A stretch of 64,000 bases of DNA, from the NCBI GenBank assembly GCA_023823795.1, contig CP085711.1, forward strand, positions 1 to 64,000. Reading direction: 5' to 3'. This DNA is from Bacillus sp. F19 (GTDB lineage: Bacteria; Bacillota; Bacilli; Bacillales; Bacillaceae). This document shows positions 3,588-64,000 of the stretch, in pieces (the first letter of the stretch is position 1; each line of letters begins with the position of its first letter). The notes under the pieces are model-generated. The model worked only from the letters and a program-made list of their open reading frames with translations, was not told the DNA's origin and did no database searches. Made by a program: the position numbers and the translations under genes.

Positions 3588-4444
3588 TGGACAAGAAATT
3601 GGAAGCTTTAAGAAAAGAATATAAGAATACACCTATCCCAGATGAATTGGATTTCATCGTGAAAAAAGCCCTCAAGCAAAAAAAGAAAAGAAATGTGAAC
3701 ATGATGCAGCGTCTTGTTGGGGTCGGAGCAGCGGTGCTGATATTCATCACAGGAGTTAATGCGAGTCCAAACCTTGCAAATGCCTTATCAGAAGTGCCTA
3801 TTGTTGGCTCGCTCGTTAAGGTGTTGACTTTTACAGAATTTAAAGTAGATGAGGGAACAGCCAAAACGGAAATAAAAGTACCTGCGATTACGAACATGGA
3901 AAATAAAACATTAGAATCCACCTTGAACAAAAAATACCTGGAAGCAAGTAAAAAACTGTACAATGATTTTATGGCGAAAATAGAGGAAGTAAAGAAGAAT
4001 GGCGGAGGTCATTTGGGTGTAGAAAGCGGTTATGATGTCAAAACCGACAATGATCAAATTCTTGCTGTGGGCAGATATGTTGTAAGCACGGTGAATTCTT
4101 ACTCAGAATATACCTATGATACGATCGACAAGAAACATGAACTTTTGATAACCTTGCCGAGTTTATTTAAAGATGATAGCTATATGAACCTGATAAACGA
4201 AAATATAAAGGAACAGATGAGGCGTCAAATGGAAAGAGACCCCGACAAGTTTTATTGGTTGGATGATGAAATGGGCTTTAAAACCATTGCCAAAGACCAA
4301 AGCTTTTATATTAACGATATAGGAAAACTTGTTATCGTATTTAATAAATACGAAGTCGCGCCAGGCTATATGGGCGTTTGTGAATTTACCATTCCGACCG
4401 ATGTGATTGCCAATGTATTAGCCAGTAAAGAATATATCAAATAG
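3587..4444 (+). CDS. rsiV: Anti-sigma factor RsiV (lysozyme sensor)
   Basis: 285 residues, the same length as B. subtilis RsiV. A cytoplasmic N-terminus of about 38 residues (sigma-binding region) precedes one membrane segment near 40-58, then VNASPNLANA, which resembles the signal-peptidase-like cleavage region of RsiV. The extracellular part, from about 60 on, is a DUF3298-type domain, which binds lysozyme in the characterised protein. In B. subtilis lysozyme binding triggers cleavage by signal peptidase and release of SigV. The ATG overlaps the sigma gene stop and a rho-independent terminator follows at once, so sigV-rsiV appears to be a two-gene operon. Confidence 0.85.
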   Translation: MDKKLEALRKEYKNTPIPDELDFIVKKALKQKKKRNVNMMQRLVGVGAAVLIFITGVNASPNLANALSEVPIVGSLVKVLTFTEFKVDEGTAKTEIKVPAITNMENKTLESTLNKKYLEASKKLYNDFMAKIEEVKKNGGGHLGVESGYDVKTDNDQILAVGRYVVSTVNSYSEYTYDTIDKKHELLITLPSLFKDDSYMNLINENIKEQMRRQMERDPDKFYWLDDEMGFKTIAKDQSFYINDIGKLVIVFNKYEVAPGYMGVCEFTIPTDVIANVLASKEYIK

Positions 4445-31264: not shown

Positions 31265-31300
31265 GGGTTTGTCCAATAATTTAATTTATTGGACAAACCC
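31265..31300 (+). terminator. Terminator interrupted by a MITE
   Basis: GGGTTTGTCC pairs with GGACAAACCC. The MITE begins at the very next base, so the usual T tract has been displaced. A GGG...CCC site of this sort resembles the IS231 target preference. Confidence 0.7.
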
Positions 31301-31428
31301 CATCGCCATCAAGTTAAGAAATGCATTCTTCCCCAAAACGAAAAAAATGAGCTAAATTCTATAAATAACTGTAGAGATATAAAATTTTCGTTTTGGGGAT
31401 ATTTCAAAATCTTAGCTTGATGGGTATG
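31301..31428. mobile_element. 128-bp IS231-type MITE
   Basis: Ends CATCGCCATCAAGTTAAG and (right, inverted) CATACCCATCAAGCTAAG match the IS231-like tips. The interior pairs TTCCCCAAAACGAAAA with TTTTCGTTTTGGGG. It has no coding capacity and could be moved in trans by the neighbouring transposase. It lies head to tail with the full element, separated by 12 bp. Confidence 0.7.
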
Positions 31429-31440
31429 TGGGCGGTACCC

Positions 31441-47789: not shown

Positions 47790-48308
47790 ATGAATAAGAA
47801 AACATGTCCATATTGCGGAAGTAACATTAAAAAAATGAATGAATTTCAGTATTACTGCGGGTTCTGTGATATGAGAGTGAATTCAAATAGGGCAATGCAG
47901 AACAATGAAAGACTGGAAGTGAGGGTGAGTGAATTTGTAGCCGATCATTATATTGATAAGAACACTCCAGAATTAATGAATTTTTCAACTTACGAGCTTT
48001 TGTATATGTTAAAGTTTATCAGAAAAGAAAGAAGCGATATGTATCATCATATGAAAATTTTCCATCTGGCTGGTGAACAGGATGACACAGAGCGATATGA
48101 AGAGATAGAAAAAGAGACCGGCCGAAATTATATATATTTGTCCAAAAAAATGTTTGTTGTTGAAAATATCATTAGACTGAGATTAGGATATATACCTGTA
48201 AAAATAACAGAAACGTATTTGGTTAAGTATTTAGAAAACATAAAGAATGATAAAAAGGGCCCCATGATTATTCGCACAGAGCACGTTAAAAAGAATGGAA
48301 AAAAATGA
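47790..48308 (+). CDS. Zinc-ribbon protein of mobile-element type
   Basis: 172 residues from an ATG behind AAGGAGGAG; a longer frame from 47,730 lacks such a site. An N-terminal four-cysteine zinc ribbon, TCPYCGSNIKKMN then YYCGFCDMRV (Cys6, Cys9, Cys24, Cys27 approximately), is followed by a helical charged domain (MNFSTYELLYMLKFIRKERS DMY) and a basic C-terminus. The family has no assigned function; placement 200 bp after a RadC-like gene is typical of integrative-element cargo. Confidence 0.7.
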   Translation: MNKKTCPYCGSNIKKMNEFQYYCGFCDMRVNSNRAMQNNERLEVRVSEFVADHYIDKNTPELMNFSTYELLYMLKFIRKERSDMYHHMKIFHLAGEQDDTERYEEIEKETGRNYIYLSKKMFVVENIIRLRLGYIPVKITETYLVKYLENIKNDKKGPMIIRTEHVKKNGKK

Positions 48309-48516
48309 GTAATCGATATTAAAAATTATGACTTTCCATAATATATGTGAAGAGCCTTTTTGTATTGCAATTATCAATTCTGCGTAATTAGATTTCAGAA
48401 TTTAAATGAATATAAATTGGTTAAGCCTTTATATAGCAACGTTTAACGAAGGTATTATAAAATAGTTAATAGTTTTAAAATTTTAAAAAATATGAATATA
48501 TTTACTAGGTGATGAA

Positions 48517-49518
48517 ATGAAGTTCAAACGTTGGTTTTATCTTCTATTATTTCTGCTATTTATGATCAATCTCTTCTTAATGCTTGTTTACGGCAAAAAA
48601 ACATTTGAAGCCCAAGATCGGGTGAAACCACCTCATCAATATGACTATCATTTCGCTTTAATATCGGAAGAAGTAGATAATGAATACTGGAGGTTAATAG
48701 AAAAAGGAGCAAAAGATGCAGCTGAAAAATACAATGTTTATTTGGAATATCTAGGCCCTAAACAGGCTGATAACATTGAACAGTTAAAGTTTATGGATAA
48801 GACTATTACTGGTAAGGTAGATGGAATCATCATTCAAGGGATTGCTCATTCGAATTTTAACCAGCTCACAAACAAAGCATTCGAAAGGGGGATAGAGATT
48901 GTGACTGTTGATACGGATGTCGCTGACAGTGAGCGGAAGGCATTTGTCGGTTCGGATAATTATATGGCAGGAGTACAGGCAGGGAGCGCTATGATCGAGG
49001 ACACAAAGGGAGATCAATATGTCGGAATTGTAACAGGAAGATTCGACGCTTTGAACCAACAGCTTCGAATAAAAGGGTTCAAGGATGCAATTAAAAAGGA
49101 AAACCGTATAAAACTGGTTGATATTGAAGTATCCAATATTACAAAGAGCGGTGCACTGCAAGCTACATACGATTTATTAAAGAAGCACCCTCATATAAAT
49201 GCTTTTTATGGGACTAGTGCTCTTGATGGTTCGGGGATTGCCCAAGTGGTCAATCAGTTTAACTTAAAGCAGAGGACGTATATTATTGGTTTTGATATTT
49301 TGCCGCAAACACTTCTTCTATTGGAAGAAGGCTCTATAGATGCATCTGTTGTCCAATACCCATATGAAATGGGATATCAATCAGTTGAAGCATTGCTTCA
49401 TTTGAAAAATGAAGATGAAAGTAAAACACTACATCACACCATGACTAGGGTAATCCACCCTACCGACATTCAAGACTTCTATGAGAAGGGAACTGTATAT
49501 GAAAACCATACGAAGTAA
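48517..49518 (+). CDS. Membrane-anchored sugar-binding sensor (Peripla_BP_4)
   Basis: 333 residues. An uncleaved N-terminal membrane helix (WFYLLLFLLFMINLFLMLVY) anchors a type I periplasmic-binding fold: FALISEEVDNEYWRLIEKGA KDAA, KVDGIIIQGIAHSNFNQL, GIEIVTVDTDVADSERKAFV GSDNYMAG, and ALQATYDLLKKHPHINAFYG. Such anchored RbsB-like proteins co-encoded with LytS/YesM kinases act as extracellular sugar sensors (XylFII-LytS is the known precedent). Its stop overlaps the kinase start by about 20 bp. It presumably presents the locus's sugar ligand, possibly a mannoside, to the kinase; the ligand is inference. Confidence 0.82.
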   Translation: MKFKRWFYLLLFLLFMINLFLMLVYGKKTFEAQDRVKPPHQYDYHFALISEEVDNEYWRLIEKGAKDAAEKYNVYLEYLGPKQADNIEQLKFMDKTITGKVDGIIIQGIAHSNFNQLTNKAFERGIEIVTVDTDVADSERKAFVGSDNYMAGVQAGSAMIEDTKGDQYVGIVTGRFDALNQQLRIKGFKDAIKKENRIKLVDIEVSNITKSGALQATYDLLKKHPHINAFYGTSALDGSGIAQVVNQFNLKQRTYIIGFDILPQTLLLLEEGSIDASVVQYPYEMGYQSVEALLHLKNEDESKTLHHTMTRVIHPTDIQDFYEKGTVYENHTK

Positions 49519-49783
49519 GCTGCTCCTTTCCTTTTTTGCCTTTGTTGTTTTATTCAATGTAGTGTCTGTTTCTATTTATTTTAGCAGTCGATCTTTCTTG
49601 TTAGAGTATGATGCAAGTTTCGAACGTTTTTTATTAATGAATCAAATTTCGCAAGATTCAAATCTTCTATATGAAAAAACCAATGCTTATGTGGTTGAGA
49701 AAAATCAAACTTCCATACAGGAGTTTCATAAGGTCCGTCATTTATTAGAAAGTAGCATAATAAAGCTGGAGACGAATAAAAAT
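48774..49783 (+). repeat. Segmental duplication, copy B (source copy)
   Basis: Partner of 34,381-35,393. Here the sequence lies within intact sensor and kinase genes, so this copy is most likely the original. Confidence 0.9.
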
Positions 49784-50947
49784 AGCCTAGATCCCATCCA
49801 ACTTCAGAAGTATATCAATACCATCAAGAATTTTGTATTAGAATGTGAGATGACGGTCGGATTTGTCATTCGTGATGACATTGTCCAATATACGAAACAT
49901 CTGAGAGAAGCACGAAAGACTTCCACTTATTTACAAGAGACGACTATGTCTCTAATTGATTTAGAGTTAACAGACTATCAATCTTTCTTTGCAGGAATGG
50001 AACAACGAAATGAATCATTCAAGTGGTTTACCTTTTTTCTGTTTAATACTACTGTCTTGCTGGCCATTTCTTTTGCAATATGGTTTTCAAAGGGCATTAA
50101 CCGTCCGATTCAAAGCCTATCTAGAGCTGCCAATGAAATTTCTGCTGGAAAGTTTGATGGTCAAGCCGTTGACATTGAATCCAATGATGAGTTAAAGCTC
50201 CTCGGAAATACGTTTAATACAATGCGTGACAATATCCGTCAGTACATCATTGAAATGGAAGAGAAATCAGAGCTTGACAGGTTGTTTAAAGAATTGGAAC
50301 TAAAGCATCTGCAAAATCAGATTAATCCCCACTTTCTATTTAATACTTTGAATACGGTTTCAAGGATGGCGTATCTCGAAAATGCAGAAGATACATCACG
50401 TTTGATAGATTCTGTCTCTTCTTTATTACGGTATAGTTTAGGCGATAATAAAAAATCCGTATTGTTAAGGGCAGAGGTAGATGCCGTCACCGATTATTTT
50501 TATATCCAGCAAACCCGATTTGGTGATCGGATTACCTTTCATAAGCATGTAGAGGATACATGTTTAGATATTGAAATCCCGAGACTATCCTTACAGCCCC
50601 TAGTTGAAAACTCCTTCATTCATGGGGTGGAGGGTAAAGAAGAAGGAGGGGAAATATCTCTTCACGTATATAAAGAGGAACAGAACACAGTTGTAGAGAT
50701 AAGGGACAATGGCGCAGGAATGTCAGGGGAACAGATTCATTCTTTGTTAACCTTTTCATCCAGTGGACATCAACTTCCTCACGTTGGTCATTCTACAGGT
50801 ATCGGTCTAATTAATGTGGTTCGACGGCTTCAGCTGTTTTATCAATATGACCATGTTATAGAGATCTTATCAGCGCCTGGGAAAGGAACATCTATAAAAT
50901 TACTGTTGCCAAAGGAGGGGAAGTTATATGAACGTAGTGATCGCTGA
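49499..50947 (+). CDS. YesM-type sensor histidine kinase
   Basis: 482 residues. TM1 (about 7-28), an extracellular helical sensor part, TM2 (about 175-196) and a HAMP domain (FSKGINRPIQSLSRAANEIS AGKFDG) are followed by a His_kinase (LytS/YesM) domain with the phospho-acceptor His in NQINPHFLFNTLNTVSRMA (about 278) and an HATPase_c domain (QPLVENSFIHGVE N box, EIRDNGAGMSG, GIGLINVVRRLQLFY). Start ATG 49,499 behind AGAAGGGA, overlapping the sensor gene; the stop overlaps the regulator gene by 20 bp. It phosphorylates the downstream YesN-type regulator. Confidence 0.9.
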   Translation: MKTIRSKLLLSFFAFVVLFNVVSVSIYFSSRSFLLEYDASFERFLLMNQISQDSNLLYEKTNAYVVEKNQTSIQEFHKVRHLLESSIIKLETNKNSLDPIQLQKYINTIKNFVLECEMTVGFVIRDDIVQYTKHLREARKTSTYLQETTMSLIDLELTDYQSFFAGMEQRNESFKWFTFFLFNTTVLLAISFAIWFSKGINRPIQSLSRAANEISAGKFDGQAVDIESNDELKLLGNTFNTMRDNIRQYIIEMEEKSELDRLFKELELKHLQNQINPHFLFNTLNTVSRMAYLENAEDTSRLIDSVSSLLRYSLGDNKKSVLLRAEVDAVTDYFYIQQTRFGDRITFHKHVEDTCLDIEIPRLSLQPLVENSFIHGVEGKEEGGEISLHVYKEEQNTVVEIRDNGAGMSGEQIHSLLTFSSSGHQLPHVGHSTGIGLINVVRRLQLFYQYDHVIEILSAPGKGTSIKLLLPKEGKLYERSDR

Positions 50948-52343
50948 TGATGAAATGCTAGAACGCAAGGCAATGAGAATGTTTCTAGAAAAAAATTTCA
51001 GTAATATTAAAGTGGCAGGAGAGGCTTCAAACGGGAGAGAGGCAATTGAATTAGCAGAGCGTCTTCAGCCTGATTTTATGTTAATGGACATTAAAATGCC
51101 AGGTATTGATGGAATTGAGGCCATTCGACAGATACGGAAAAGGCAGATGAACATCAAATTCATCTTGGTTTCAGCTTATGATTCTTTTGAATATGCCAAA
51201 GAGGCAATGAAAGAGGGTGTCAAAGAATATATTTTGAAGCCGGGAAAGAAAGAAGAAACAATGGAAGCGATATCAAGAGTCTGTGATGAAATAATAAACG
51301 AGAGAGCAGTCTCAGACCAAAAAGAAGAGTATATGTATTTTGCTCAGGAAAACTTCCTCTTAAAGATTCTCCAATATGATGTGAGGGAGGAATTTCTGAC
51401 ACAGCAAAGGCAGCTGTATCCGGACATGCAAAGCGGTTTTTTCTTTGTCGCAGATCTAGGGGATTGTGGGGATGACGATTTATTTCAGCAGTTGCTGAAA
51501 CGTTATTCGCCGTATCCGCATATTACTGTTTACTATGGCCAAAAGTATGTAACCCTATTTATTAGTCCAAAAGAACATCCCAAGACGGAAGCGCTCGTTT
51601 TAGCGAAGAAAATCGTATCCGCCATCACAACAAGGATCTGGATTGGCATAGGTTATCCTTATTCAAAAGTGGAGCAACTTCCCTATTCATATCAGGAGGC
51701 TTTACAAACTCTTCGCGCATTGAAAAAAGACAACCGAAGTCTATATTGTCTTCCTTTTGCTAAGAAAGAAGAGTTAATTGAGGAATTAGAAGAATTGTTT
51801 TTCTGTGTTTTTCAGGGGGAAATACCCTCAGCCCTTTCAATTGTTCAACAGCTTCTAGGAAAAATGGAACAGAACGAGTTGTATATAAAAATCAGAGAAA
51901 GGCTTGTACGGGAAGGCATTTCGATATCGATCCATCAACTTTCTTTTCCGCAAACAGAAGTCGAATGGAAGGAATTTATACAAAATCTCTGTATGAAGGT
52001 ATTGGAGTTTTATCATTCAAATAATCCGATTGAAAAAGCTAAAAAATATATCGATTTGTACTACCAAGAACCAATCACCCTGGAACAGGTTGCTGATCAT
52101 GTAAAACTAAGTCCTACCTATTTTACAAAGCTTTTTAAGGAAACATCCCAAACGACTTTTATAGATTATCTCACTGAGGCTCGACTTGCCAAAGCAAGAC
52201 AATTATTAAATGAAAATACATATAGTTTGAAAGAGATAAGCCACATGATTGGCTACAAGGATCCAAACTACTTTAGCAGGGTATTTAAAAAACACTACCT
52301 GATTTCGCCGAAGCAATTTAATAAGCAGCATTCTGGTGACTGA
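50928..52343 (+). CDS. YesN-type response regulator (receiver + AraC HTH)
   Basis: 471 residues. The N-terminal receiver has MNVVIADDEMLERKAM, the phospho-Asp54 in DFMLMDIKMPGIDG, and Lys in YILKPGKKEE. A middle domain of unknown function (about 130-360) is followed by an AraC-type DNA-binding domain with two helix-turn-helix motifs (ITLEQVADHVKLSPTYFTKL FK, and YSLKEISHMIGYKDPNYFSR VFKKH). It is the output of the three-gene sensor system and is expected to activate the transporter genes starting 156 bp downstream. Confidence 0.92.
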   Translation: MNVVIADDEMLERKAMRMFLEKNFSNIKVAGEASNGREAIELAERLQPDFMLMDIKMPGIDGIEAIRQIRKRQMNIKFILVSAYDSFEYAKEAMKEGVKEYILKPGKKEETMEAISRVCDEIINERAVSDQKEEYMYFAQENFLLKILQYDVREEFLTQQRQLYPDMQSGFFFVADLGDCGDDDLFQQLLKRYSPYPHITVYYGQKYVTLFISPKEHPKTEALVLAKKIVSAITTRIWIGIGYPYSKVEQLPYSYQEALQTLRALKKDNRSLYCLPFAKKEELIEELEELFFCVFQGEIPSALSIVQQLLGKMEQNELYIKIRERLVREGISISIHQLSFPQTEVEWKEFIQNLCMKVLEFYHSNNPIEKAKKYIDLYYQEPITLEQVADHVKLSPTYFTKLFKETSQTTFIDYLTEARLAKARQLLNENTYSLKEISHMIGYKDPNYFSRVFKKHYLISPKQFNKQHSGD

Positions 52344-52462
52344 AGCAGAAGTTAGCAGAGTATTTAAGTTAGGGGGTTCAGACCCTAAAAAAGTACAGAA
52401 AATCATAATAAAATGCAGAAAATTCTATCTGTATTGGCTAGAATCTTTTTTTATAATATAAC

Positions 52463-52476
52463 TGTAAACGGTTTCA
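52463..52476 (+). promoter_or_regulatory. Consensus cre (CcpA) site
   Basis: TGTAAACGGTTTCA matches TGWAANCGNTNWCA at every position. It lies 24 bp before the solute-binding-protein start, downstream of the AT-rich promoter region, a position expected for CcpA roadblock repression. Confidence 0.8.
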
Positions 52477-52499
52477 TTTAAACGGAGGGGGAATAAAGC

Positions 52500-53777
52500 T
52501 TGAAAAAGAGGATATGGTTATCTATATTATTGGCGTTTTCTTTGATTCTTTCTGCCTGCAGTTCATCAAAGAGCGCAGGGGATGGCGAAGATAAAAAGGA
52601 TTCAGGTAAAATGGAAATATTTAGCTGGTGGACCGGAGCCGGTGAAGAAGATGGATTAAAAGCACTAATAAAGCTTTTCGAAGAGAAATACCCAGATGTT
52701 CCGATTGAAAATGCAGCCGTTGCAGGCGGTGCCGGAACGAATGCTAAAGCGGTCCTGGCAAGCCGGATGCAAGGAAATGATCCTCCTGCAACCTTCCAGA
52801 TCCATGGCGGAGCCGAGTTGAATGAAGGATGGGTAAAGGCCGACAAAATGGAACCAATCGATGATCTATATGAAAAAGAAGGATTAAAGGACAAGTTTCC
52901 ACAAGATTTAATAGATATGGTTAGCAAGGATGGTAAGATTTACTCCGTTCCTGTTAATATTCATCGCGGAAATGTTCTATGGTACAACAAAAAGGTATTT
53001 GAAGAAAATGGCCTCCAAGCCCCGACTACTTTTAACGAGTTTTTTGAAGTGGCAGATAAGTTAAAAGCAAAGGGTATCACTCCGTTAGCGTTGGGTGATA
53101 AAGAGTCTTGGACAGCAACCCATTTATTTGAAACTGTATTGCTAGGCAAGCTTGGAGCCGAGGAATACACCAAACTTTGGAAGGGTGAACTTGCACTTGA
53201 CGACAAAAAAGTAGTCGAGGCTGTTGAAACGTTCAAGAAAATGCTTTCATACATCAACGAAGACCATAGCTCACGGAACTGGCAAGATGCCTCCCAATTA
53301 GTGGCAAATGGAGAAGCAGCTATGAATGTCATGGGCGACTGGGCAAAAGGTTACTTTGTGAATGACTTGAAGCTCAAAGTCAATGAAGACTTTGGATATA
53401 TTACAACACCTGAAACAGAAGGGCAATTCATGGTTGTCACTGATACGTTTGGGCTTCCAAAAGGTGTTAAGAATCCGGATGATGTGAAGAAATTCCTTGC
53501 TGTATTAGGCTCTGTGGAAGGCCAGGACGCCTTTAACCCGTTAAAAGGTTCAATTCCTGCCCGTACGGATGCAGACGTTTCTAAATATGATCAGTATGGA
53601 AAGGATACGATTGAAGATTTTAAAGAAGCAAAATTGGCTGCAAGCTTGGCCCATGGCTCAGCAGCACCTGAGGGCTATCTGACCAAAGTCAATCAGGCGG
53701 TCAATATTTTTGTTACACAGAAAGATGTGAAGGGGTTTGTGGAAACCCTAACAGCAGCTTCTTCTGAATTGAAATAA
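52500..53777 (+). CDS. Sugar ABC transporter solute-binding lipoprotein
   Basis: 425 residues. Lipoprotein signal peptide ending LILSAC (Cys about 20), then a family-1 extracellular solute-binding fold (MEIFSWWTGAGEEDGLKALI KLFEEKYPD, FQIHGGAELNEGW, GDKESWTATHLFETVLL). The start is TTG with GGAGGGGG at about 9 nt; no alternative ATG keeps the signal peptide. It captures an oligosaccharide or sugar at the cell surface for the two permeases that follow; the usual MsmK-type ATPase is not encoded here and is probably shared. Confidence 0.9.
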   Translation: MKKRIWLSILLAFSLILSACSSSKSAGDGEDKKDSGKMEIFSWWTGAGEEDGLKALIKLFEEKYPDVPIENAAVAGGAGTNAKAVLASRMQGNDPPATFQIHGGAELNEGWVKADKMEPIDDLYEKEGLKDKFPQDLIDMVSKDGKIYSVPVNIHRGNVLWYNKKVFEENGLQAPTTFNEFFEVADKLKAKGITPLALGDKESWTATHLFETVLLGKLGAEEYTKLWKGELALDDKKVVEAVETFKKMLSYINEDHSSRNWQDASQLVANGEAAMNVMGDWAKGYFVNDLKLKVNEDFGYITTPETEGQFMVVTDTFGLPKGVKNPDDVKKFLAVLGSVEGQDAFNPLKGSIPARTDADVSKYDQYGKDTIEDFKEAKLAASLAHGSAAPEGYLTKVNQAVNIFVTQKDVKGFVETLTAASSELK

Positions 53778-53782
53778 CCATC

Positions 53783-53820
53783 AAAAAGAGGATGAGATTT
53801 TTTGCTTCCTCTTTTCTTTT
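53783..53820 (+). terminator. Intra-operon hairpin
   Basis: AAAAAGAGGATGAG pairs imperfectly with CTTCCTCTTTT ahead of a T run, between the binding protein and the first permease. Such partial terminators typically make the binding protein more abundant than the permeases. Confidence 0.6.
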
Positions 53821-53843
53821 TTCTCATTAAAGGAGGCAGAGAG

Positions 53844-54824
53844 ATGGAGCAGCCCATCATCAAACAAACCCAAACGACCGGAACGTCCATTGGACTATAC
53901 AGCAAAAGAAAGAAAAAGCTAACGAAAGACCATCTTCTAGCCATTGCATTTATCTTGCCATCTATTCTTTTCATTACAGTCTTCGTATACGGATTCATCA
54001 GCTGGACGGGTTATGTATCACTCAGTAATTGGAATTCTCTCGTTCCGGATTTCTCATTAGCAGGATTCAAAAACTATCAATTTTTATTTAACGATTTCCG
54101 TTTTCAGGCTGATTTGCGCAATACTATTGTTTTTACCGTCTTATTCATTGCAGCAATCATATTTATTGGTCAGTTCCTTGCGGTTTTATTAGATCAAAAA
54201 ATCAAGGGAGAATCGCTCTTCCGGAATATCTTTTTCTTCCCCATGGCATTATCTTTCGTCGTAACAGGAGTCGTGTGGCAATGGTTGTTGAATCCTTCGA
54301 CAGGAGTCAACCTCTTTTTGACAAAAATCGGGCTTGATTCAAGATGGTATACCGATACGAATATATTAGCCGGATTTAAATGGGGGAAAATCGAATTTGG
54401 GATCCCTGTCGCTATTATTGCTGTAGTCATTGCGGCAGTATGGCAGATGACAGGGTTCTCGGTTGCAATGTATTTAGCAGGTCTTAGAGGAATTTCTGAT
54501 GAGATTAGAGAGGCTGCGAGAATGGACGGTGCTACGGAATTTCAAATTTACCGTAAAATCATTCTGCCTTTGCTTCGGCCTATTACGGTAAGTGTTGTCA
54601 TCATCATGGCCCATATTTCGTTGAAAATATTTGACCTGATATATGCGATGACTGGTTCAGGGGCAAACTTTGTCACAGATGTTCCCGGTGTTTACATGTT
54701 TGAGACGACCTTCCGAGGAAACTATTATGCAAATGGTGCAGCGATCGCCATCGTTATGCTTATTTCGGTAGCTATCTTTATTGTTCCTTATCTGATCTCC
54801 AGTAGAAAGGGGGATTCCAAATGA
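53844..54824 (+). CDS. Sugar ABC transporter permease, MalF type
   Basis: 326 residues with six membrane helices and the EAA loop EIREAARMDGATEFQIYRKI ILPLLRP near 225-251, which contacts the ATPase. ATG 53,844 behind AAAGGAGG; the frame is open upstream, but that portion lies in the intergenic hairpin. The next gene overlaps by 4 bp (ATGA), so the two permeases are translationally coupled. Confidence 0.92.
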   Translation: MEQPIIKQTQTTGTSIGLYSKRKKKLTKDHLLAIAFILPSILFITVFVYGFISWTGYVSLSNWNSLVPDFSLAGFKNYQFLFNDFRFQADLRNTIVFTVLFIAAIIFIGQFLAVLLDQKIKGESLFRNIFFFPMALSFVVTGVVWQWLLNPSTGVNLFLTKIGLDSRWYTDTNILAGFKWGKIEFGIPVAIIAVVIAAVWQMTGFSVAMYLAGLRGISDEIREAARMDGATEFQIYRKIILPLLRPITVSVVIIMAHISLKIFDLIYAMTGSGANFVTDVPGVYMFETTFRGNYYANGAAIAIVMLISVAIFIVPYLISSRKGDSK

Positions 54825-55642
54825 CAATTAGAACCTTTACCAAACCGTTGTTATATTTTATGTTAGTCGGAATCAGCCTTTTATTCCTGATGCCAGTCTA
54901 TGTCATGATCGTGACCAGTTTGAAGCCTTTGGACCAAGTCACCTTGACAGAGATGTGGAAGCTGCCTGCAACACTTGATTTCAGCAGTTATTCTGTGGCG
55001 TTTACTAAGCTTGCACCTAACCTATTGAACTCTTTTTATCTCGTCATTCCAGCCACGCTTTTATCGGCACTTTTGGGATCTTTGAATGGCTATATTTTAT
55101 CCAAATGGAAGTTCAAAGGCGCAGACACTGTATTTACATTAATTCTATTTGGGATGTTTATTCCCTACCAAAGCATCCTAATTCCGATGATTCAATTCCT
55201 GCGGGAAATTGGATTGTACAATACCATCGCGGGACTCGTTTTTGTACACGTGGTTTATGGGATCCCAATAACCACTCTTATGTTCCGAAACTTCTATGCT
55301 AGCATTCCAGACGAAATGATAGAATCAGCCAAGATTGACGGAGCGGGGTTTATCCGGATTTTCCGTTATATCATGATTCCACTTTCGATTACTGGATTTG
55401 TCGTGGTCGCCATCTGGCAGTTCACGAACATCTGGAATGAGTTCTTGTTTGCCGTGACTATCACGACTTCCAGCCAACAGCCGATCATGGTCGCCCTTCA
55501 GAATTTATCAGGAAGCCAAATCGTTCAATGGAATGTACAAATGGCTGGGGCACTGCTCGCTGCCCTTCCCACCCTATTAGTCTATATTTTCTTAGGGAAG
55601 TTTTTTGTAAAGGGATTACTTGCGGGATCAGTAAAAGGGTGA
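54821..55642 (+). CDS. Sugar ABC transporter permease, MalG type
   Basis: 273 residues, six helices, EAA motif PDEMIESAKIDGAGFIRIFR YIMIPLS near 166-191. The C-terminus is typical of MalG-like proteins (FFVKGLLAGSVKG). It is the last gene of the importer; the gap behind it leads to the broken GH92 gene. Confidence 0.92.
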   Translation: MTIRTFTKPLLYFMLVGISLLFLMPVYVMIVTSLKPLDQVTLTEMWKLPATLDFSSYSVAFTKLAPNLLNSFYLVIPATLLSALLGSLNGYILSKWKFKGADTVFTLILFGMFIPYQSILIPMIQFLREIGLYNTIAGLVFVHVVYGIPITTLMFRNFYASIPDEMIESAKIDGAGFIRIFRYIMIPLSITGFVVVAIWQFTNIWNEFLFAVTITTSSQQPIMVALQNLSGSQIVQWNVQMAGALLAALPTLLVYIFLGKFFVKGLLAGSVKG

Positions 55643-55769
55643 CAGGTATTTAAGATGACTGGCCAAATGCAGGCCTGTTAGCTCTAAATAATCACAAAGG
55701 TATAGAGGGAGGTGCAATAACTTTTTCATTGCTGTTTTGAATAATAATCTAATTGGAGGTGTGAATTAA

Positions 55770-56019
55770 TTGAACAAAAAAAAACGTTAAGAAAGGTTTA
55801 TATGTTCTGACCTGCTCAGCTTTACTGGCAGGAATCTTATATAATCCGACTGCTCAGAAGGTTTCTGCCGGATCACAAACAAAAACTGCAACCGACTTCT
55901 TCACGTCATTTGAAGAAGAGAATCCACAGCCGACCTGGAAAAATCAAGTAGAAACCGATGCAAAAGGAAAAAAGATGTCTTCAGGTATCGATGGCAACAT
56001 TCAATATGATGGCATTTAG
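55770..56019 (+). pseudogene. Broken N-terminus of a first GH92 alpha-mannosidase
   Basis: TTG start behind GGAGGTG, then a run of nine A residues (55,776-55,784) that throws the frame into a stop. With one A fewer the frame continues through a signal peptide (KKGLYVLTCSALLAGILY NP, cut near VSA) and the typical GH92 opening (TATDFFTSFEEENPQPTWKN, then ETDAKGKKMSSGIDGN). It then stops again at TAG 56,017. The catalytic part is absent, so this is a decayed second mannosidase; the homopolymer break could also be a base-calling error. Confidence 0.75.
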
Positions 56020-56331
56020 GGGGATAACACATAAAGTGGTGAAAGAAAAGAGCTAGCAGTGAATGTGAAAATTAATCAACAAGCTGCTTACAGTGATGAC
56101 GCATATGTGGTATTCGAGCTGTTTAAGGGCAATAGATCAATGATGATCAATGAAATCCCTATTCATCAAAGTACGATGGAAGTCACTCAGTATCTTAATA
56201 CAAGGTTAAAGTATTTGTGTTCCAACAGTGACATTCCTGTCCATTTGGCAGAACACTCGTGCTTAAGTAAAAGATAGAACTATAGGTGAATAAAAGATTC
56301 ATAATTAATGAAATTGGGAGGACAGATTAAA
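56020..56331. other. Gap with an unrecognised open frame
   Basis: The same frame as the preceding remnant reopens and runs to 56,277 (VKINQQAAYSDDAYVVFELF KGNRSMM, then IPVHLAEHSCLSKR). It is not GH92-like and I do not recognise it; it may be part of the debris of the lost gene. Confidence 0.35.
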
Positions 56332-59300
56332 ATGGGAAAAAAGCTTTTATCCATGTTTATGATCGTATTGATTCTATTGACTATGATGGAACCATTATCG
56401 TCGGACTCCGTTATGGCGGTATCCGAATCCCATCCGCAGGAATCAAAGACCACGAATGTGGCTTTGAATGCGAAGGCGACAGCCAGCGGTCAATGTAATG
56501 AATATGAAAATCCTAGTTTTGCCGTGGATGGCAGAACCGATACGAAGTGGTGTGACAATTCCGGTACTGCTCAGAAATGGCTAGAGTTGGATTTGGGCAA
56601 AGAATACAACATTAACCAATGGGTTGTACAAAATGCTTGTATTGGTGAATCAAAAAATTGTCCTTACTGGAATACCAATTCATTTCGTTTGCAGATGAGT
56701 GAAGACGGAAAGACCTGGGAAGATATCGATGTTGTAAAGGATAACTATCAGACAATCGTTGACAGATACGTCCCTACGTTTAAAGGTCGTTATATTAGGC
56801 TCTATCTAGATAAACCTTCCACTCAAGACTCAAACGCTAGGATTTACGAGTTAGAATTGTATGGCACAGATGTAGAACAAACGCCTGCTTATCCGGAGAT
56901 TAACAAAAAACCTGTAGATTATGTCGATCCATTTATCAACACATTAGGCGATAATGGCCAGACGAATCCTGGTCCAACAACGCCGTTCGGTCTAGTATCA
57001 TTGGGACCGGATTCCGATGGTGGGGCATTTAGTGGATATTATTATCAAGATAAATATCTGAAAGGGTTTTCACACCTTCGATTCAGCGGTGTCGGCTGCA
57101 GCGGTGCAGGTGGAAATATCTTGATGAAGCCTGGGATCGGTTCGTTTACGAATGACAGCAAAAAATATAAAGAGAAGTACGACAAAAACAGTGAGGAAGC
57201 ATCACCTGGCTATTATAAAGTGAAACTTGAATCCGACATTGAAGTGGAACTGACTGCTTCGAAGCGTGTAGGATTCCATAAATATAAGTTTCCTAAATCA
57301 CAAGATGGGTATGTGCTAATTGATCTAGCAAACTCATATGCAGGGATGCTAGATGCTAGTCTTAAGGTTGAAAATAACAATGAAATATCAGGCTATATTA
57401 CAGGAAAAAATGTATGTGGTCATGGCTACTATAAAATGTATTATTCTATTCAGTTTGATCAAGATTTCGACTCCTATCAGTCTTGGTCTGGCGATGCTGT
57501 CGGAGACGATGAGAGTCGCAGCGGCACAAAGATTGGGGTATTTGCAAAATTTGACACAAACAAAAATCAGGAGATAAAAGCAAAAGTTGGTCTTTCTCCA
57601 ATTAGTGTAGAAGAGGCAAAATATGAAAGAGATCATGATATTCCGAATTGGAATTTTGACCAGCAACGGAGCAAAACGAGAAAAATTTGGAGTAAGCTTC
57701 TAAACAAGGTGGAAATCACCGACAACGATGAGGAAAACAAGACGATTTTCTATACGCAGCTGTATCACTCCTTCCTTCACCCAAATAATGTCACAAGCTC
57801 AAAAGGCGAGTTCCGAGCGGCAAGGGATGAGAATACGATTCGCAGCACCTCTGAGTTTGGCAAGGACTTTGAATATTACTCAGGCTGGACGACATGGGAT
57901 GATTTTAGGAAATACTCCTTGTATTCAATACTTGCTCCTCAGGAGTTTGATAATATTGTGAAATCTATGGTGGATGTATATAAGACTAGGGGCTCCTATG
58001 TCCAGTGGGGGCAAGGGTACTGGCCAAGTCCGACTGTACGGAATGAATTTAACGGTGCGGTAATCCTTGATGCTTATACAAAAGGATTTGATGATTTCGA
58101 CGCGTATACGGCTCTTCAAGGGATGGCTGTCGATACAGATCATTATGTTCCTAATAAAGTATCCGGAGCACTAGAGAAAGCATACAGTGCTTATTACCCG
58201 ATGAAGCTAGCTTCTCTTCTTGGAGACAAGGCAACCTATTTGAAATACCGGGAAATTGCGTTGTCTTATCAGGATCTCTGGAACCCAACACAGAAGGATG
58301 ACCAACAAAATGTACGAGGATTTTTTACGCCGAATGCAGAAACAGTTGCAAGCGTTTCAAAGATCAATGAATTTGCTTATCAAGGAAATCTGTGGCATTA
58401 CCGATGGTTCGTTCCGCATGATGTCCAAGGTCTGGCCAAACTAAGGGGGAGCTCTGAAAAGTTAGCTGATGACCTAGAGTATTTCTTTGAAATTGATGAA
58501 TATATGGCAATCAACGAACCGGATATTCAAGCGCCGTATATGTTTAATTATTTGGGCAAGCCTTATTTAACCCAGAAATATGTGAGAGAATACACGACGG
58601 AAGTAGTTACACAAAAGTACCATAACCATGGATTGTATGCTTTGCCGATCAAATCACGTGTATACCGTGCTGATCCAGAGGGGTATTTGCCTTCGATGGA
58701 TGATGATGCCGGGGCAATGTCTTCCTGGTTCGTGTATAGCGCAATGGGGTTATTCCCTGGAAATCCCGGAGACCCTTACTATATGATCGGTTCGCCTATC
58801 TTCTCTGAAATGACATTGCATCTTGAGAAAGGGAAGTCATTTACGATAAAGGCAAACGATGTATCTAGTAAAAATCGCTATATTCAAGAGGCGAAGCTGA
58901 ACCGGAAAAGCTTTGATCAGGCATGGATCAGCTACGAGGATATTATGAAAGGCGGAAAACTAGAATTCCAAATGGGCTCAACCCCGAACAAAGAATGGGG
59001 AGCTGATCCAAGTAAAACTCCTCCTTCTACGGATTTCACAAAAGAGGTCATTCTTAAATTGAACAGCATCACAGTACCTGCACCGGTAAAAGTGGCCATC
59101 GGAACGGCGAAGACAGCGGAAGCTCTTGGATTACCCGAAAAAATAGCCCTTGTAACCGATGGGGGAAATGTGGATGCCAGTGTGAATTGGGATGTAAATA
59201 GTGCAAGCTACGATCCAACTGCCACGACGGCGCAGACCTTCACGGTAACAGGAAAAGTAACTCTGCCTATTGGAGTCACAAACCCGAACAGCGTTCCATT

Positions 59301-59991
59301 GACAACAAGCATTAGCGTATCTGCAAAGCCTGCTGAACTAGTAGCCCACTGGAAGTTCGATGAAGGCTCCGGTACAACCGTCGGCGATTCTTCAGGCAAC
59401 AGCAACACCGGAACTCTGGTTAACAACCCGACTTGGACCGATTCGGGCAAAGGCGGAGCGCTTGCTTTCAGCGGCGGCTCAAGGGCCGAGTTCAACTCTT
59501 CGGCAACTTTGAATAAAACAGGTGACGAGTCCGTGTCGTTGTGGTTCAAGACTTCTCAGCCTGCAACCGGCAACGCGAACCTTTTCCGTCAAGATAAGCG
59601 TTTCACGGCTCTTCAGTTGACAAGCGGGGGTCAAGCTCGCGTGGCCTATTGGCCCAATGCTTCATCCAGTTATAAAGCGCTGGCGTTTCCATGGACCTAC
59701 AACGATAACAAATGGCATCATTATGTGGCTTCCTACGATCATTCAACTGGGCTGAAGATTTATGTCGACGGTAACTTAGTGGCAAGCAATACAACGAATC
59801 TCGGACCGCTTCCGACTGTGACGAATAAAATCGTGCTGGGAGCCAACGAATCCGGCGGGGAAGCTTACAATGGACTGCTGGACGACGTTCGCGTATTTGA
59901 CCTCGCGTTGACTCAGGACGAAGTAAGGCAATTGAGTGATCAACAACCGCCAACGACAACGGACAATGCGCCAAGCGGCTCGGTCAATTAA
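56332..59991 (+). CDS. Secreted GH92 glycosidase, possible mannose-phosphodiester uncapping type
   Basis: 1219 residues. Signal peptide to about 30, F5/8-type C (CBM32) domain about 43-183, GH92 N-terminal beta domain and (alpha/alpha)6 catalytic domain about 195-885, Big_4 domain about 900-1005, LamG/concanavalin domain about 1008-1208. GH92 landmarks: GLVSLGPDSDGGAFSGYYY, GWTTWDDFRKY, VPHDVQGL, PSMDDDAGAMSSWFVYSAMG (catalytic-base Asp cluster). The general-acid motif EGNAW reads YQGNLWHY, with Gln684 for Glu. That substitution is described for GH92 enzymes hydrolysing mannose-alpha-1-phosphate-6-mannose, which need no acid. ATG 56,332 follows GGGAGGA. TAA at 59,989 interrupts a frame that continues as a further domain. 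Confidence 0.88.
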   Translation: MGKKLLSMFMIVLILLTMMEPLSSDSVMAVSESHPQESKTTNVALNAKATASGQCNEYENPSFAVDGRTDTKWCDNSGTAQKWLELDLGKEYNINQWVVQNACIGESKNCPYWNTNSFRLQMSEDGKTWEDIDVVKDNYQTIVDRYVPTFKGRYIRLYLDKPSTQDSNARIYELELYGTDVEQTPAYPEINKKPVDYVDPFINTLGDNGQTNPGPTTPFGLVSLGPDSDGGAFSGYYYQDKYLKGFSHLRFSGVGCSGAGGNILMKPGIGSFTNDSKKYKEKYDKNSEEASPGYYKVKLESDIEVELTASKRVGFHKYKFPKSQDGYVLIDLANSYAGMLDASLKVENNNEISGYITGKNVCGHGYYKMYYSIQFDQDFDSYQSWSGDAVGDDESRSGTKIGVFAKFDTNKNQEIKAKVGLSPISVEEAKYERDHDIPNWNFDQQRSKTRKIWSKLLNKVEITDNDEENKTIFYTQLYHSFLHPNNVTSSKGEFRAARDENTIRSTSEFGKDFEYYSGWTTWDDFRKYSLYSILAPQEFDNIVKSMVDVYKTRGSYVQWGQGYWPSPTVRNEFNGAVILDAYTKGFDDFDAYTALQGMAVDTDHYVPNKVSGALEKAYSAYYPMKLASLLGDKATYLKYREIALSYQDLWNPTQKDDQQNVRGFFTPNAETVASVSKINEFAYQGNLWHYRWFVPHDVQGLAKLRGSSEKLADDLEYFFEIDEYMAINEPDIQAPYMFNYLGKPYLTQKYVREYTTEVVTQKYHNHGLYALPIKSRVYRADPEGYLPSMDDDAGAMSSWFVYSAMGLFPGNPGDPYYMIGSPIFSEMTLHLEKGKSFTIKANDVSSKNRYIQEAKLNRKSFDQAWISYEDIMKGGKLEFQMGSTPNKEWGADPSKTPPSTDFTKEVILKLNSITVPAPVKVAIGTAKTAEALGLPEKIALVTDGGNVDASVNWDVNSASYDPTATTAQTFTVTGKVTLPIGVTNPNSVPLTTSISVSAKPAELVAHWKFDEGSGTTVGDSSGNSNTGTLVNNPTWTDSGKGGALAFSGGSRAEFNSSATLNKTGDESVSLWFKTSQPATGNANLFRQDKRFTALQLTSGGQARVAYWPNASSSYKALAFPWTYNDNKWHHYVASYDHSTGLKIYVDGNLVASNTTNLGPLPTVTNKIVLGANESGGEAYNGLLDDVRVFDLALTQDEVRQLSDQQPPTTTDNAPSGSVN

Positions 59992-60527: not shown

Positions 60528-61538
60528 TTAGAGTTTCTGTGACGATTTTCTAATCAGCACTTGCGGCGGAAGAATCACTTTTTGCTTTTCTTTAGGACCG
60601 TTGCCTTCAATTCTTTCAATAAGAAGTTGGATACCAATATAGCCGAAATTATAGGCAGGCTGTGAAGCTACGGTCAAAAACGGATTAAAGTCAGGTATCG
60701 GATCAGGATCATCAAAACAAACGATTGCGATATCTTTAGGTACATGAATATTTAACTCACGAAGGCTTTTAATTGTATCGATCGCAATAAAGTTGTTTGC
60801 AGCAAAAATCGCAGTCGGTTTTTCATCATCTGGCAGAGACATCATCTTCTTAATAAGTGGATATGCATCATTCTGCATGAAAGAAAGATTTGCCAAAAGT
60901 TTTTTATTTGGTTTTATCCCGGCGAGTTGCAATGTTTCGATAAAAGCTTTTTCCCTTGCACGAGCAGTTGAAACATTGGACGGTCCATTGATTAATGCAA
61001 TTCTGGAATGTCCCTCGTCGATTAAGTGCTCGATTAATTTTCGTGTTCCTTGATAGTTATCTCCAAGTACAAGATCACAATCTATTTCCGGGATCTCCCT
61101 GTCAATTAAAACAAACGGTATTTTATTTTTGATAAGTGTTCTAAGATTTTTTTTCGACTCATCCCCTGAAGGAGCTATTAAAACCCCATCGACTCCTGCT
61201 GAAAGAAGCATTTTAACATATTCCGATTCTTTTCCCAAGCTTTCATCACTATTACTAAGAAGGAGGCGATAGCCCATTTGTTTTGCCTTATCCTCCGCAC
61301 CGCGTGCCACCTTTGTGTAAAAAGGATTTGTAATATCCGTGATGATCAAGGAAAGTATTTTCGTTTCTTTTAAAATTAAACTTCTTGCTGCATTATTTGG
61401 AATATAGTTGAGTTCCTCTATAACTTTTTCAACGTTTTTTCTTGTCTTTTCACTAATTTTTCCAGAGTTGTTGATTACTCTGGATACTGTCATTGGAGAA
61501 ACGTTAGCCTTTTTAGCGATATCATAAATGGTAACCAT
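60528..61538 (-). CDS. LacI-family transcriptional regulator
   Basis: 336 residues. LacI HTH at the N-terminus (TIYDIAKKANVSPMTVSRVI NNSGKISEKTR) with hinge helix YIPNNAARSL, then a periplasmic-binding-like effector domain (ILSLIITDITNPFYTKVARG AED, SAGVDGVLIAPSG, VCFDDPDPIPDFNPFLTVAS QP). Divergent from the GH95 gene, with two identical palindromic operators between them, so it most likely represses both. The inducer is presumably a sugar released by the locus's glycosidases. Confidence 0.92.
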   Translation of the reverse strand: MVTIYDIAKKANVSPMTVSRVINNSGKISEKTRKNVEKVIEELNYIPNNAARSLILKETKILSLIITDITNPFYTKVARGAEDKAKQMGYRLLLSNSDESLGKESEYVKMLLSAGVDGVLIAPSGDESKKNLRTLIKNKIPFVLIDREIPEIDCDLVLGDNYQGTRKLIEHLIDEGHSRIALINGPSNVSTARAREKAFIETLQLAGIKPNKKLLANLSFMQNDAYPLIKKMMSLPDDEKPTAIFAANNFIAIDTIKSLRELNIHVPKDIAIVCFDDPDPIPDFNPFLTVASQPAYNFGYIGIQLLIERIEGNGPKEKQKVILPPQVLIRKSSQKL

Positions 61539-61614
61539 GTGAATGATCCTTTCTAAATCTGAGTTTTCCTATTATTAATATAGTTTATAATCAGGGTGAC
61601 ATCAATATTTAACA

Positions 61615-61628
61615 TGTTATCGATAACT
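61615..61628. promoter_or_regulatory. LacI-type operator 1
   Basis: TGTTATCGATAACT; the central GTTATCGATAAC is a perfect 12-bp palindrome with the CG centre usual for LacI-family sites. It is 76 bp upstream of the regulator's start codon. Confidence 0.75.
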
Positions 61629-61721
61629 CACTTTAATCTGTTTATTACTTCGTTATATCCTCTTGGCACGGCTTTCTTTTTTTAAAATTCCTTAGTGTTG
61701 AAAAGTGATTAAAAAAATTGA

Positions 61722-61750
61722 TTGACATCAAAACAAACATTTGTTAATTT
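61722..61750 (+). promoter_or_regulatory. SigA-type promoter of the GH95 gene
   Basis: TTGACA, 17-bp spacer, TAATTT. Operator 2 begins three bases after the -10 box, so a bound repressor would cover the transcription start. Confidence 0.7.
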
Positions 61751-61752
61751 TG

Positions 61753-61766
61753 TGTTATCGATAACA
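61753..61766. promoter_or_regulatory. LacI-type operator 2
   Basis: TGTTATCGATAACA is a perfect 14-bp palindrome identical in its core to operator 1; centre-to-centre distance 138 bp. Confidence 0.78.
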
Positions 61767-61976
61767 TACAGAAAAGTCAGAAAAATATTATTTGCAATGT
61801 TTGTACCATAGTTGTTGCTTGAAAAGGTTTTCACTCATTCCTTGAATTCGCAACTACTCTTTTTATTGTACAAAAGTCAGATATGAGGGGGTATTTTGAA
61901 TGAAATAGTTTGATAGATGTATTACATTTTTGGCATATTTATCACTAGTTTAAGTACAAAAGGAGGAAGTTTTAAT

Positions 61977-64000
61977 TTGGCTAAGAAACATCCGATAAAG
62001 TTACTATTGTCCTCGAGTCTTTTTTTCATTCTTTCACTTATACTGATTTTTAGTAGTGTAGTTGACACAATTTCTAATGTCAAAGCAAAAGAAGAAAAGG
62101 GAAGTGAAGCTTCTTCAATGAACGGCATTACATATACCGGAAAAGCAGGACCACCAGATTCCGACCTTGCATTATGGTACCGACAGCCAGCTGTGAATTG
62201 GGAAAAAGAAGCTTTACCAATCGGAAACGGCTATATGGGTGCAATGATTTTCGGTGGTGTAAACCAAGAACACATCCAATTCAATGAAAAAACGCTTTGG
62301 ACAGGAGGTCCAGGTGAGTGGGAAGGTTATACAGGAGGTAACTGGGCAGAACAAAATCTAGAGCCGTTGGCCAAGATTCGCCGTCTGATTGAGCATGAAA
62401 AATGGGGTGAAGCTGATCAGGCGGCATATGGTCTCATGAACACTGATCGTGCATTTGGTGCGTATCAAAATTTTGGAGATATTTACCTTGATTTTGATTC
62501 TCCATCAAAAGTGGAAAACTACCGCCGTGAGCTTGACCTGAAGAATGGTGTTGCACGAGTTACTTACACAGTGGACGGTGTAACCTATAAACGAGAATAT
62601 TTCGCTAGTTACCCTGACAAAGTGGTAGTAATGCATTTAACAGCAAGTGAACGCGGGAAATTGAGTTTTGCCACCCATTTAACATCACCGCACAAGGATA
62701 CAAACGTTACTGCTTCTGACGGAAGATTACAATTGACGGGCAGTTTAAGCAATAAGATGAACTTTGAGTCACAATTGCAGGTAATGAACGAGGGAGGCTC
62801 ACTAGAAACTGGTGCTGACAAAGTCAATGTACAAAATGCCGACGCTGTTACAATTATTTTGACTGCGGGTACGGACTACGAGCATAAATACCCGACATAT
62901 AAGCGGGAACATCCGCATACCCGTGTAACGGCAAACCTTGATGCTGCATCGGTAAAATCCTATAATACACTACTTAGCGCTCATGAAGAGGACTATCATG
63001 AGTTATTCAATAGAGTCGAACTCAATATTGGCCAAAAACAGCCCCAAGTCCCAACTGATGAGCTGTTAAAGTCCTATACAGGCAATAAACAAGACAGTCA
63101 AAGTCGAGCTCTTGAAAACATCTTCTTTCAGTATGGACGGTACCTGCTAATTAGCTCATCCCGAACAGGTTCATTGCCAGCTAATTTACAGGGTGTTTGG
63201 AATAACTCAACTAAGCCGCCATGGAGTTCAGACTACCATGTGAACATTAACTTGCAGATGAATTACTGGCCAGCGGAAGTAACAAACCTTAGTGAAACGA
63301 CCCTTCCATTGTTCGATTACATCGATAAAATGCAGGAAAGAGGAAGTGAAACCGCGCGAATCCATTTCGGAGCGGACGGATGGGTAACCCATAATGAAAT
63401 GAACATATTCGACCATACAGGGCCGAAGAATTGGTGGTCGTCATTCTACTTTCCTGAGGCCGCAGCGTGGCTGACTCAACATTTATGGGAACATTATGCC
63501 TTTACGAAAGATGAAAAGTTTCTTAAGGAAACAGCTTATCCAATCATGAAAGACGCTGCAGAGTTCTGGATCGATAACCTTGTTGTTGATCCTAAAGACG
63601 GAAAACTTATCGCCACACCAAGCTACTCACCTGAACAAGGTTCATATTCCGGCGGAGCATCTATGTCACAACAGATTATTTGGGATTTGTTCACAAACAC
63701 GCTCGAAGCGAGTGAGATTTTACACGCAGACAAGAAATTCCGTGAACAGTTGAACGAGATGAAACAGAAGCTCGATCCAGGTTTACGGATAGGCTCGTGG
63801 GGACAATTGCAAGAATGGAAACAAGACTGGGATGACCCGAACAATACACATAGACATGTGTCACACTTGTTTGCATTGCATCCGGGCCGACAAATTTCCC
63901 CGTTAACTATGCCTGAATATGCTGAGGCTGCAAAGGTGTCACTTACTGCCCGTGGTGATGGGGGTACGGGATGGAGTAAAGCATGGAAAATCAACTTCTG
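61977..64000 (+). CDS. Secreted GH95 alpha-L-fucosidase-type enzyme, 3' end beyond window
   Basis: At least 674 residues, open to the end of the window. TTG start with AAAGGAGG about 9 nt upstream. N-terminal signal or anchor (KLLLSSSLFFILSLILIFSS), then the GH95 N-domain (LWYRQPAVNWEKEALPIGNG YMGAMIFGG, FNEKTLWTGGPGEW) and the (alpha/alpha)6 catalytic part: NLQGVWNNSTKPPWSSDYHV with NINLQMNYWPAEVTNLSE (catalytic Asn pair), TPSYSPEQGS (catalytic Glu), HRHVSHLFALHPG, and GGTGWSKAWKINF at the cut. GH95 enzymes remove alpha-1,2-fucose or alpha-L-galactose from glycans. Controlled by the divergent LacI regulator. Confidence 0.9.
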   Translation, partial: MAKKHPIKLLLSSSLFFILSLILIFSSVVDTISNVKAKEEKGSEASSMNGITYTGKAGPPDSDLALWYRQPAVNWEKEALPIGNGYMGAMIFGGVNQEHIQFNEKTLWTGGPGEWEGYTGGNWAEQNLEPLAKIRRLIEHEKWGEADQAAYGLMNTDRAFGAYQNFGDIYLDFDSPSKVENYRRELDLKNGVARVTYTVDGVTYKREYFASYPDKVVVMHLTASERGKLSFATHLTSPHKDTNVTASDGRLQLTGSLSNKMNFESQLQVMNEGGSLETGADKVNVQNADAVTIILTAGTDYEHKYPTYKREHPHTRVTANLDAASVKSYNTLLSAHEEDYHELFNRVELNIGQKQPQVPTDELLKSYTGNKQDSQSRALENIFFQYGRYLLISSSRTGSLPANLQGVWNNSTKPPWSSDYHVNINLQMNYWPAEVTNLSETTLPLFDYIDKMQERGSETARIHFGADGWVTHNEMNIFDHTGPKNWWSSFYFPEAAAWLTQHLWEHYAFTKDEKFLKETAYPIMKDAAEFWIDNLVVDPKDGKLIATPSYSPEQGSYSGGASMSQQIIWDLFTNTLEASEILHADKKFREQLNEMKQKLDPGLRIGSWGQLQEWKQDWDDPNNTHRHVSHLFALHPGRQISPLTMPEYAEAAKVSLTARGDGGTGWSKAWKINF

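Follow-up and report, generated by a model that had tools for sequence, protein, structure and literature searches.

What does a GH92 glycosidase do without the glutamate that serves as its family's general acid? The question is raised by an open reading frame (ORF) of Bacillus sp. F19, located at 56332..59991 (+ strand) of a 64,000-nucleotide stretch of contig CP085711.1 (positions 1 to 64,000; hereafter the window), which encodes a GH92 enzyme of 1219 aa with glutamine, Gln684, in place of that acid (residue 1 being the codon at 56332). Reasoning from sequence, we consider it probable that this enzyme is a phosphodiester mannosidase, which in its relatives acts together with the phosphatase encoded beside it to free phosphate. 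The ORF starts at the ATG at 56332 with GGAGG ahead of it and stops at the TAA at 59989-59991. Its product contains an F5/8 type C (CBM32-like) domain (56476..56850, +; PF00754, E 2.4e-19), in agreement with the CBM32 assignment of the preliminary description, followed by the GH92 N-terminal domain (Glyco_hydro_92N; 56920..57597, +; PF17678, E 2.5e-68) and the GH92 catalytic domain (Glyco_hydro_92; 57616..58980, +; PF07971, E 4.8e-99), which score 230.9 and 332.9 bits where the Pfam cut-offs are 34.5 and 24.6, and a Laminin_G_3 domain in the C-terminal part. Judged by eye the N-terminus resembles a signal peptide, and the enzyme appears to be secreted. Beyond the in-frame TAA the same frame runs on with residues that look Ig-like by eye, the protein tail being truncated there.

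The codon for Gln684 (58381..58383, +) lies within a block, YQGNLWHY, that aligns with YQGTLWQY of the Cellulosimicrobium cellulans enzyme CcMan5 and with EGNAWQY of 6f8z and 7zgm. The Glu-to-Gln replacement that the preliminary description had noticed therefore holds in an alignment against characterised GH92 enzymes, in which Gln684 falls on the Gln of CcMan5 and the aligned column offers no compensating Glu. The likeness it had suggested to a Cellulosimicrobium GH92 is also borne out, since cleavage of Man-PO4-Man by CcMan5 is reported in the excerpts available of PMC5930347. Among PDB entries CcMan5 matches the window protein best (4aq0, E 7.4e-104; 2xsg, 1e-103), the next molecule being 6f8z (E 3.8e-84), and because CcMan5 is an accepted member of the family and likewise has Gln, the missing acid Glu is no bar to GH92 membership. 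The same excerpts describe the family as calcium-dependent and inverting and give for BT3130 an acid Glu535, a base Asp637, Asp353 to O3/O4, Trp390, Met400 beneath the ring and, at the -1/+1 boundary, Cys399 (PMC5930347). These correspond in the printed alignment, counted by hand, to Q684, D792, D523, W559, V569 and T568 of the window protein. The general base and the -1 subsite aspartate are thus retained, as are the MDDDAG and VPHDV motifs that had been picked out beforehand; D792 closes the segment M789-D790-D791-D792 (58696..58707, +), and T568 and V569 open the segment T568-V569-R570-N571-E572 (58033..58047, +) at the -1/+1 boundary.

Two residues of that last segment belong to a set of six, R570, E572, Y683, Y763, M789 and D790, that is invariant across a 37-row clade containing CcMan5 (21 rows with Gln and 16 with Glu at the acid position); among 14 outgroup rows only D790 of the six occurs, once. 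In a wider set of 111 aligned GH92 domains the acid column holds Gln in 55 and Glu in 56. All 55 Gln domains carry all six residues, and in the 55 Glu domains outside the clade R570, E572, Y763 and M789 occur in none, Y683 in two and D790 in 11. D731 was left off the list because it is not invariant, being Asp in 53/55 of the Gln domains and in 10/55 of the Glu domains. From their position and conservation, R570 and E572 are candidate phosphate ligands and probably hold the phosphate at the -1/+1 boundary.

A scan of genome contigs identified 59 relatives. Gln occupies the acid position in all 37 Bacilli orthologue loci (L057-L089, L091-L094), and the idea that it reflects decay private to the window was rejected on these grounds. 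It is likewise found in all 14 actinobacterial loci (13 by profile alignment, and L114, which seems split between frames and was left out of that alignment, by separate reading) and in the Bacteroidota loci L133, L139, L240, L242 and L163. Glu stands in the same motif in L090 of the Prolixibacteraceae (51% identical) and its orthologues L228-L232. We also observe that Prolixibacteraceae loci L228-L246 include several Glu-type GH92 subgroups with the Arg/Glu motif, some of which have MDCDYG instead of MDDDAG. Among plasmid records, 68 have a match, every one of them below 60% identity.

The distribution of Gln was examined on a tree of 51 rows thinned by hand, with the columns around the acid removed and with short or fragmentary domains left out, as in all trees. 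The 37-row clade holding CcMan5 and the window type has support of 100/100 and an inner 22-row clade has 95/89. Gln falls in three separated lineages and the acid position requires three changes, most straightforwardly read as three independent gains of Gln; a history of two gains plus a return to Glu in the Prolixibacteraceae would give an equal count. A quick first tree (79 rows, thinned at 85% identity) had given two changes with one apparent reversal to Glu and was superseded by the wider sampling. Constraining all Gln rows to a single group loses 134.7 log units (p 1.8e-67), and applying the constraint to the Gln rows of actinobacteria and Bacilli alone loses 35.1 (p 1e-4). These p-values are optimistic, given a long actinobacterial stem (1.7) and groups that were defined with the tree already in view. 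Both constrained trees are rejected, and with them the notion that Gln marks a single inherited uncapping lineage.

The genes next to the Bacilli enzymes provide a second line of evidence. A phosphatase gene lies close upstream of GH92 in 37/37 loci, and is purple-acid-phosphatase (PAP)-like in 34 of these (an ORF in 33 and a tblastn match in L083) and PhoX in three. The PAP-like proteins have PA14 and/or F5/8C domains, PF16656 (purple acid phosphatase N-terminal) and the PF00149 metallophosphatase domain, with fn3 domains too in two of three scanned, and the motifs DSQ, GNHE and GHDH are present in 33/33 of the ORFs. An SLH protein of approximately 550 aa stands directly between the PAP-like gene and GH92 in 28 loci; gene clusters were annotated at four of the Bacilli operons. 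In L057, L058 and L085, where PhoX is the upstream gene, decayed pieces of a PAP-like gene lie between PhoX and GH92, which indicates that an unrelated phosphatase has taken the place of the earlier partner. The control set consisted of 19 other Bacilli GH92 loci (L167-L183, L185, L186), of which 18 have Glu at the acid position; in L185, which is outside the 111-domain set, neither Gln nor Glu aligns clearly, and one alignment places Thr there. A profile search of these stretches of 16-20 kb found no separate PAP-like gene, and no phosphatase family is present among the 94/103 matched families listed for their 75 neighbours (at most two per side, from ORFs called mechanically), a HAD match being taken as the P-type ATPase of the same list. 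The contrast of 37/37 with 0/19 gives a Fisher p of 2.4e-15 with related loci counted as independent, and the control covers Bacilli alone. The PAP-like profile also matched the GH92 gene itself in L168 and a PAP2-CBM6 gene in L095 and L096, in each case via accessory domains. A literature search, a weak test of absence, did not find GH92 as a partner of Pho-regulon phosphatases among the papers listed: by title, GH92 with Paenibacillus and phosphatase gave no paper on the topic, and GH92 with phosphomannan gave feed analysis only.

The regions upstream of the PAP-like genes contain repeats that we describe as Pho-box-like and not as proven PhoP sites. Scoring three TT[ACT]A[CT]A hexamers with an 11-bp period, and counting related species as separate throughout, 19/33 of these regions reach the threshold of 16 of 18, compared with 2/160 other promoters and 1.4% of 1650 shuffles. 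Other spacings from 8 to 14 bp reach the threshold in 0-1 of 33, and the reversed motif does so in 0/33 at 11 bp, in two at 9 bp and in three at 13 bp.

The window copy of the gene has a complex origin. The genome has a 5.09-Mb contig and a 0.51-Mb contig, with the window on the latter, and a second GH92 copy on the 5.09-Mb contig differs at 2/2127 bases of the catalytic domain, each of which alters an amino acid; this chromosomal copy has a degenerate PAP remnant ahead of it and an EEP gene behind. Window coordinates 48009-56048 match a same-genus operon (G050) at 96.4%, encompassing genes for a periplasmic sugar-binding protein, a histidine kinase and an AraC-type response regulator (48517..52343, +) and for a sugar ATP-binding cassette (ABC) importer with a binding protein and two permeases (52500..55642, +). 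The G050 operon ends in a Glu-type GH92 gene, which follows its importer genes, and the match stops at 56048, approximately 280 bp into that gene, leaving in the window just the cut-off 5’ portion of an ordinary GH92 gene of the Glu type (55769..56048, +; start approximate). The segment 56047-59314 matches the chromosomal copy at 96.5%, beginning with a remnant of the C-terminus of the PAP-like gene found upstream of GH92 in relatives (56047..56265, +). Beyond 59314 there is no further homology to the chromosomal GH92 copy, and the C-terminal part with the LamG domain (59251..59946, +) shares 93.4% identity with a Metallophos-LamG gene at another place on the same contig, putting recombination junctions at 56048 and at about 59251-59314. 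The three blocks of homology (the G050 operon, the chromosomal copy and the metallophosphoesterase LamG tail) make the window gene a chimera, and we judge it from them to be a recent duplicate that has been separated from its phosphatase.

The importer and sensor genes were rejected as original partners of the Gln enzyme, as their operon belongs to a Glu-type GH92; the sugar-sensing and import context from which yeast cell-wall phosphomannan had been proposed as the target consequently falls away. In the relatives the purpose is likely to be phosphate release rather than the use of yeast mannan as carbon alone. The cluster of the tail-donor metallophosphoesterase also holds a PhoX gene, whose N-terminus is nearly the same as that of the L085 PhoX, and a 1372-aa fusion of a NAGPA phosphodiester glycosidase to a purple acid phosphatase (L195:11783-15901, about C2:189782-193900), which may be regarded as a single-chain parallel to the proposed GH92/phosphatase pair. 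Elsewhere in the window, 31298-32913 resembles (69-87%) the strain's own chromosome (L160:14738-16204 and 3820-3923) and is probably a mobile element. At 60528-63998 and in L164 there are a LacI-type regulator and a GH95-type gene, and the contig goes on with ORFs of sugar-utilisation-like character, by look a separate island.

How such an enzyme might act can be outlined. The extracellular GH92, presumably calcium-dependent and inverting like its family, would strip an alpha-mannose cap (Man-alpha-1-P-R -> Man + P-R), with Asp792 activating the water and R570 and E572 gripping the phosphate at the -1/+1 boundary. A phosphate leaving group needs no proton, and the acid Glu could thus be lost. 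In the related Bacilli the phosphatase of the adjacent gene would then free the exposed phosphate, and the operon is probably under phosphate-starvation (PhoP) control. The conjecture that the window gene encodes a mannose-phosphate uncapping enzyme is in this respect well supported, by its sequence, the clade residues and the Bacilli phosphatase neighbours. We put about even weight on a fuller account, in which the pair constitutes a two-enzyme system for extracellular phosphate scavenging with a Pho-controlled phosphatase, and in which the GH92 lineage first gained the Arg/Glu phosphate site and then lost the acid three times independently; we propose that this threefold loss occurred because the acid is no longer needed once phosphate is the leaving group.

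Several observations weigh against phosphodiester cleavage coupled to a phosphatase. The 16 of 37 clade rows that keep Glu share R570 and E572, and these residues therefore do not require loss of the acid. The PAP-like and PhoX proteins are assigned by family only, and the positive control for the upstream repeats, PstS, is mixed: 1/30 PstS regions reach the threshold by the triple score and 20/30 fit 12 bp at 11 of 12, and two perfect 11-bp repeats occur in 2/33 of the PAP-like regions versus 5/30 PstS regions and 3/160 other promoters. A PAP2 protein is next door in just 2/14 actinobacterial CcMan5-type loci (downstream of GH92 in C. arenosum, where it has CBM6, and in C. terreum); five other neighbouring proteins scanned from three actinobacterial loci include no phosphatase, PhoX not having been searched for there; and the PAP-like profile, run on 6/14 of these loci, gave two matches, both through accessory domains. 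Among five Bacteroidota Gln loci (L161, L162, L163, L255, L256), with three neighbours scanned altogether, one has an EEP neighbour. Finally, the window copy is itself without a phosphatase partner, and its R858 and S899 are private to it, being G and A in the four near relatives compared.

The alternatives differ in whether the enzyme cleaves a phosphodiester at all and, if so, which. It is somewhat unlikely that the substrate is a different alpha-mannosyl phosphodiester, such as an inositol- or glycerol-phosphate glycan, and not yeast-type phosphomannan, although the chemistry would be compatible with the mechanism outlined above. The neighbourhoods of the Prolixibacteraceae sister genes suggest such a substrate: at L090, genes for PHP (below cut-off), phytase, a metallophosphoesterase and a GH2-like protein run into the GH92 gene, and phosphoesterase families lie at most three genes away in 4/6 loci of this type (L090, L247-L251), with GDPD near GH92 in L247, a type I phosphodiesterase in L248, and GDPD and a metallophosphoesterase in L250. 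L249 has just a motif-level ORF approximately 8 kb off, and the L251 gene is at a contig end. These relatives, however, retain Glu.

That the enzyme is an ordinary alpha-mannosidase, which cleaves O-glycosides slowly or with a proton from elsewhere, and that the phosphatases serve phosphorylated mannans generally, is a less attractive explanation still, and we regard it as unlikely. Retention of the -1 subsite residues D523 and R526 and of D792, a CBM32-like domain suited to polysaccharide binding, and Glu-type GH92 genes within the same stretch at the actinobacterial loci L095, L096, L101 and L104 are all consistent with it. Against this, the acid is Gln throughout the Bacilli loci with no Glu to compensate for it in the aligned column, and according to the excerpts available of PMC10167667, changing the acid of Bt3990 to Ala or Gln left the enzyme strongly impaired on mannobiose, though not inactive. 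That the protein is a catalytically inactive lectin-like or regulatory homologue we consider very improbable. Its acid residue is gone, a stop codon truncates the C-terminus of the window copy, the ratio of nonsynonymous to synonymous substitution rates (dN/dS) is 0.44 relative to L085 (16 differences), and the two bases that distinguish it from the chromosomal copy both alter the protein; yet the clade keeps the base and the -1 residues without exception, dN/dS in the catalytic domain is ~0.1 relative to L057 and L058, and CcMan5 with the same Gln is reported as active in the excerpted text of PMC5930347.

Mannose-phosphate uncapping enzymes are rare, one characterised example being cited in the excerpts available, and are useful in lysosomal enzyme engineering. 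The loci described here add 37 Bacilli orthologues, candidate key residues and a link to phosphate rather than carbon nutrition. A single clade in which the catalytic acid was lost repeatedly also amounts to a natural experiment on when a glycosidase no longer needs it, with controls already supplied by the Glu-type sisters, which carry the same Arg and Glu. Among known systems, CcMan5 (CcGH92_5; 2xsg, 4aq0) shares with the window enzyme the clade, the Gln at the acid position, the PTVRxE and MDxDAG motifs and the base Asp, but is 36% identical in the catalytic domain, has Leu where the window has Trp559 and, by the tree, acquired its Gln separately from the Bacilli. The ordinary GH92 alpha-mannosidases Bt3990, BT3130 and NnGH92 share the family, the -1 subsite Asp and the general base but carry the acid Glu; in BT3130 the residue below the ring is Met instead of the V569 of the window enzyme, and the alignment shows no counterparts of R570 and E572. 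The ‘uncovering’ phosphodiester glycosidase NAGPA, which acts on GlcNAc in mammals, likewise takes off a sugar cap to expose phosphate but belongs to a different Pfam family (PF09992). The Pho-regulon phosphatases, PhoX and the purple acid phosphatases, are the partner genes of the Gln enzyme in the Bacilli, with Pho-box-like repeats upstream of the PAP-like gene.

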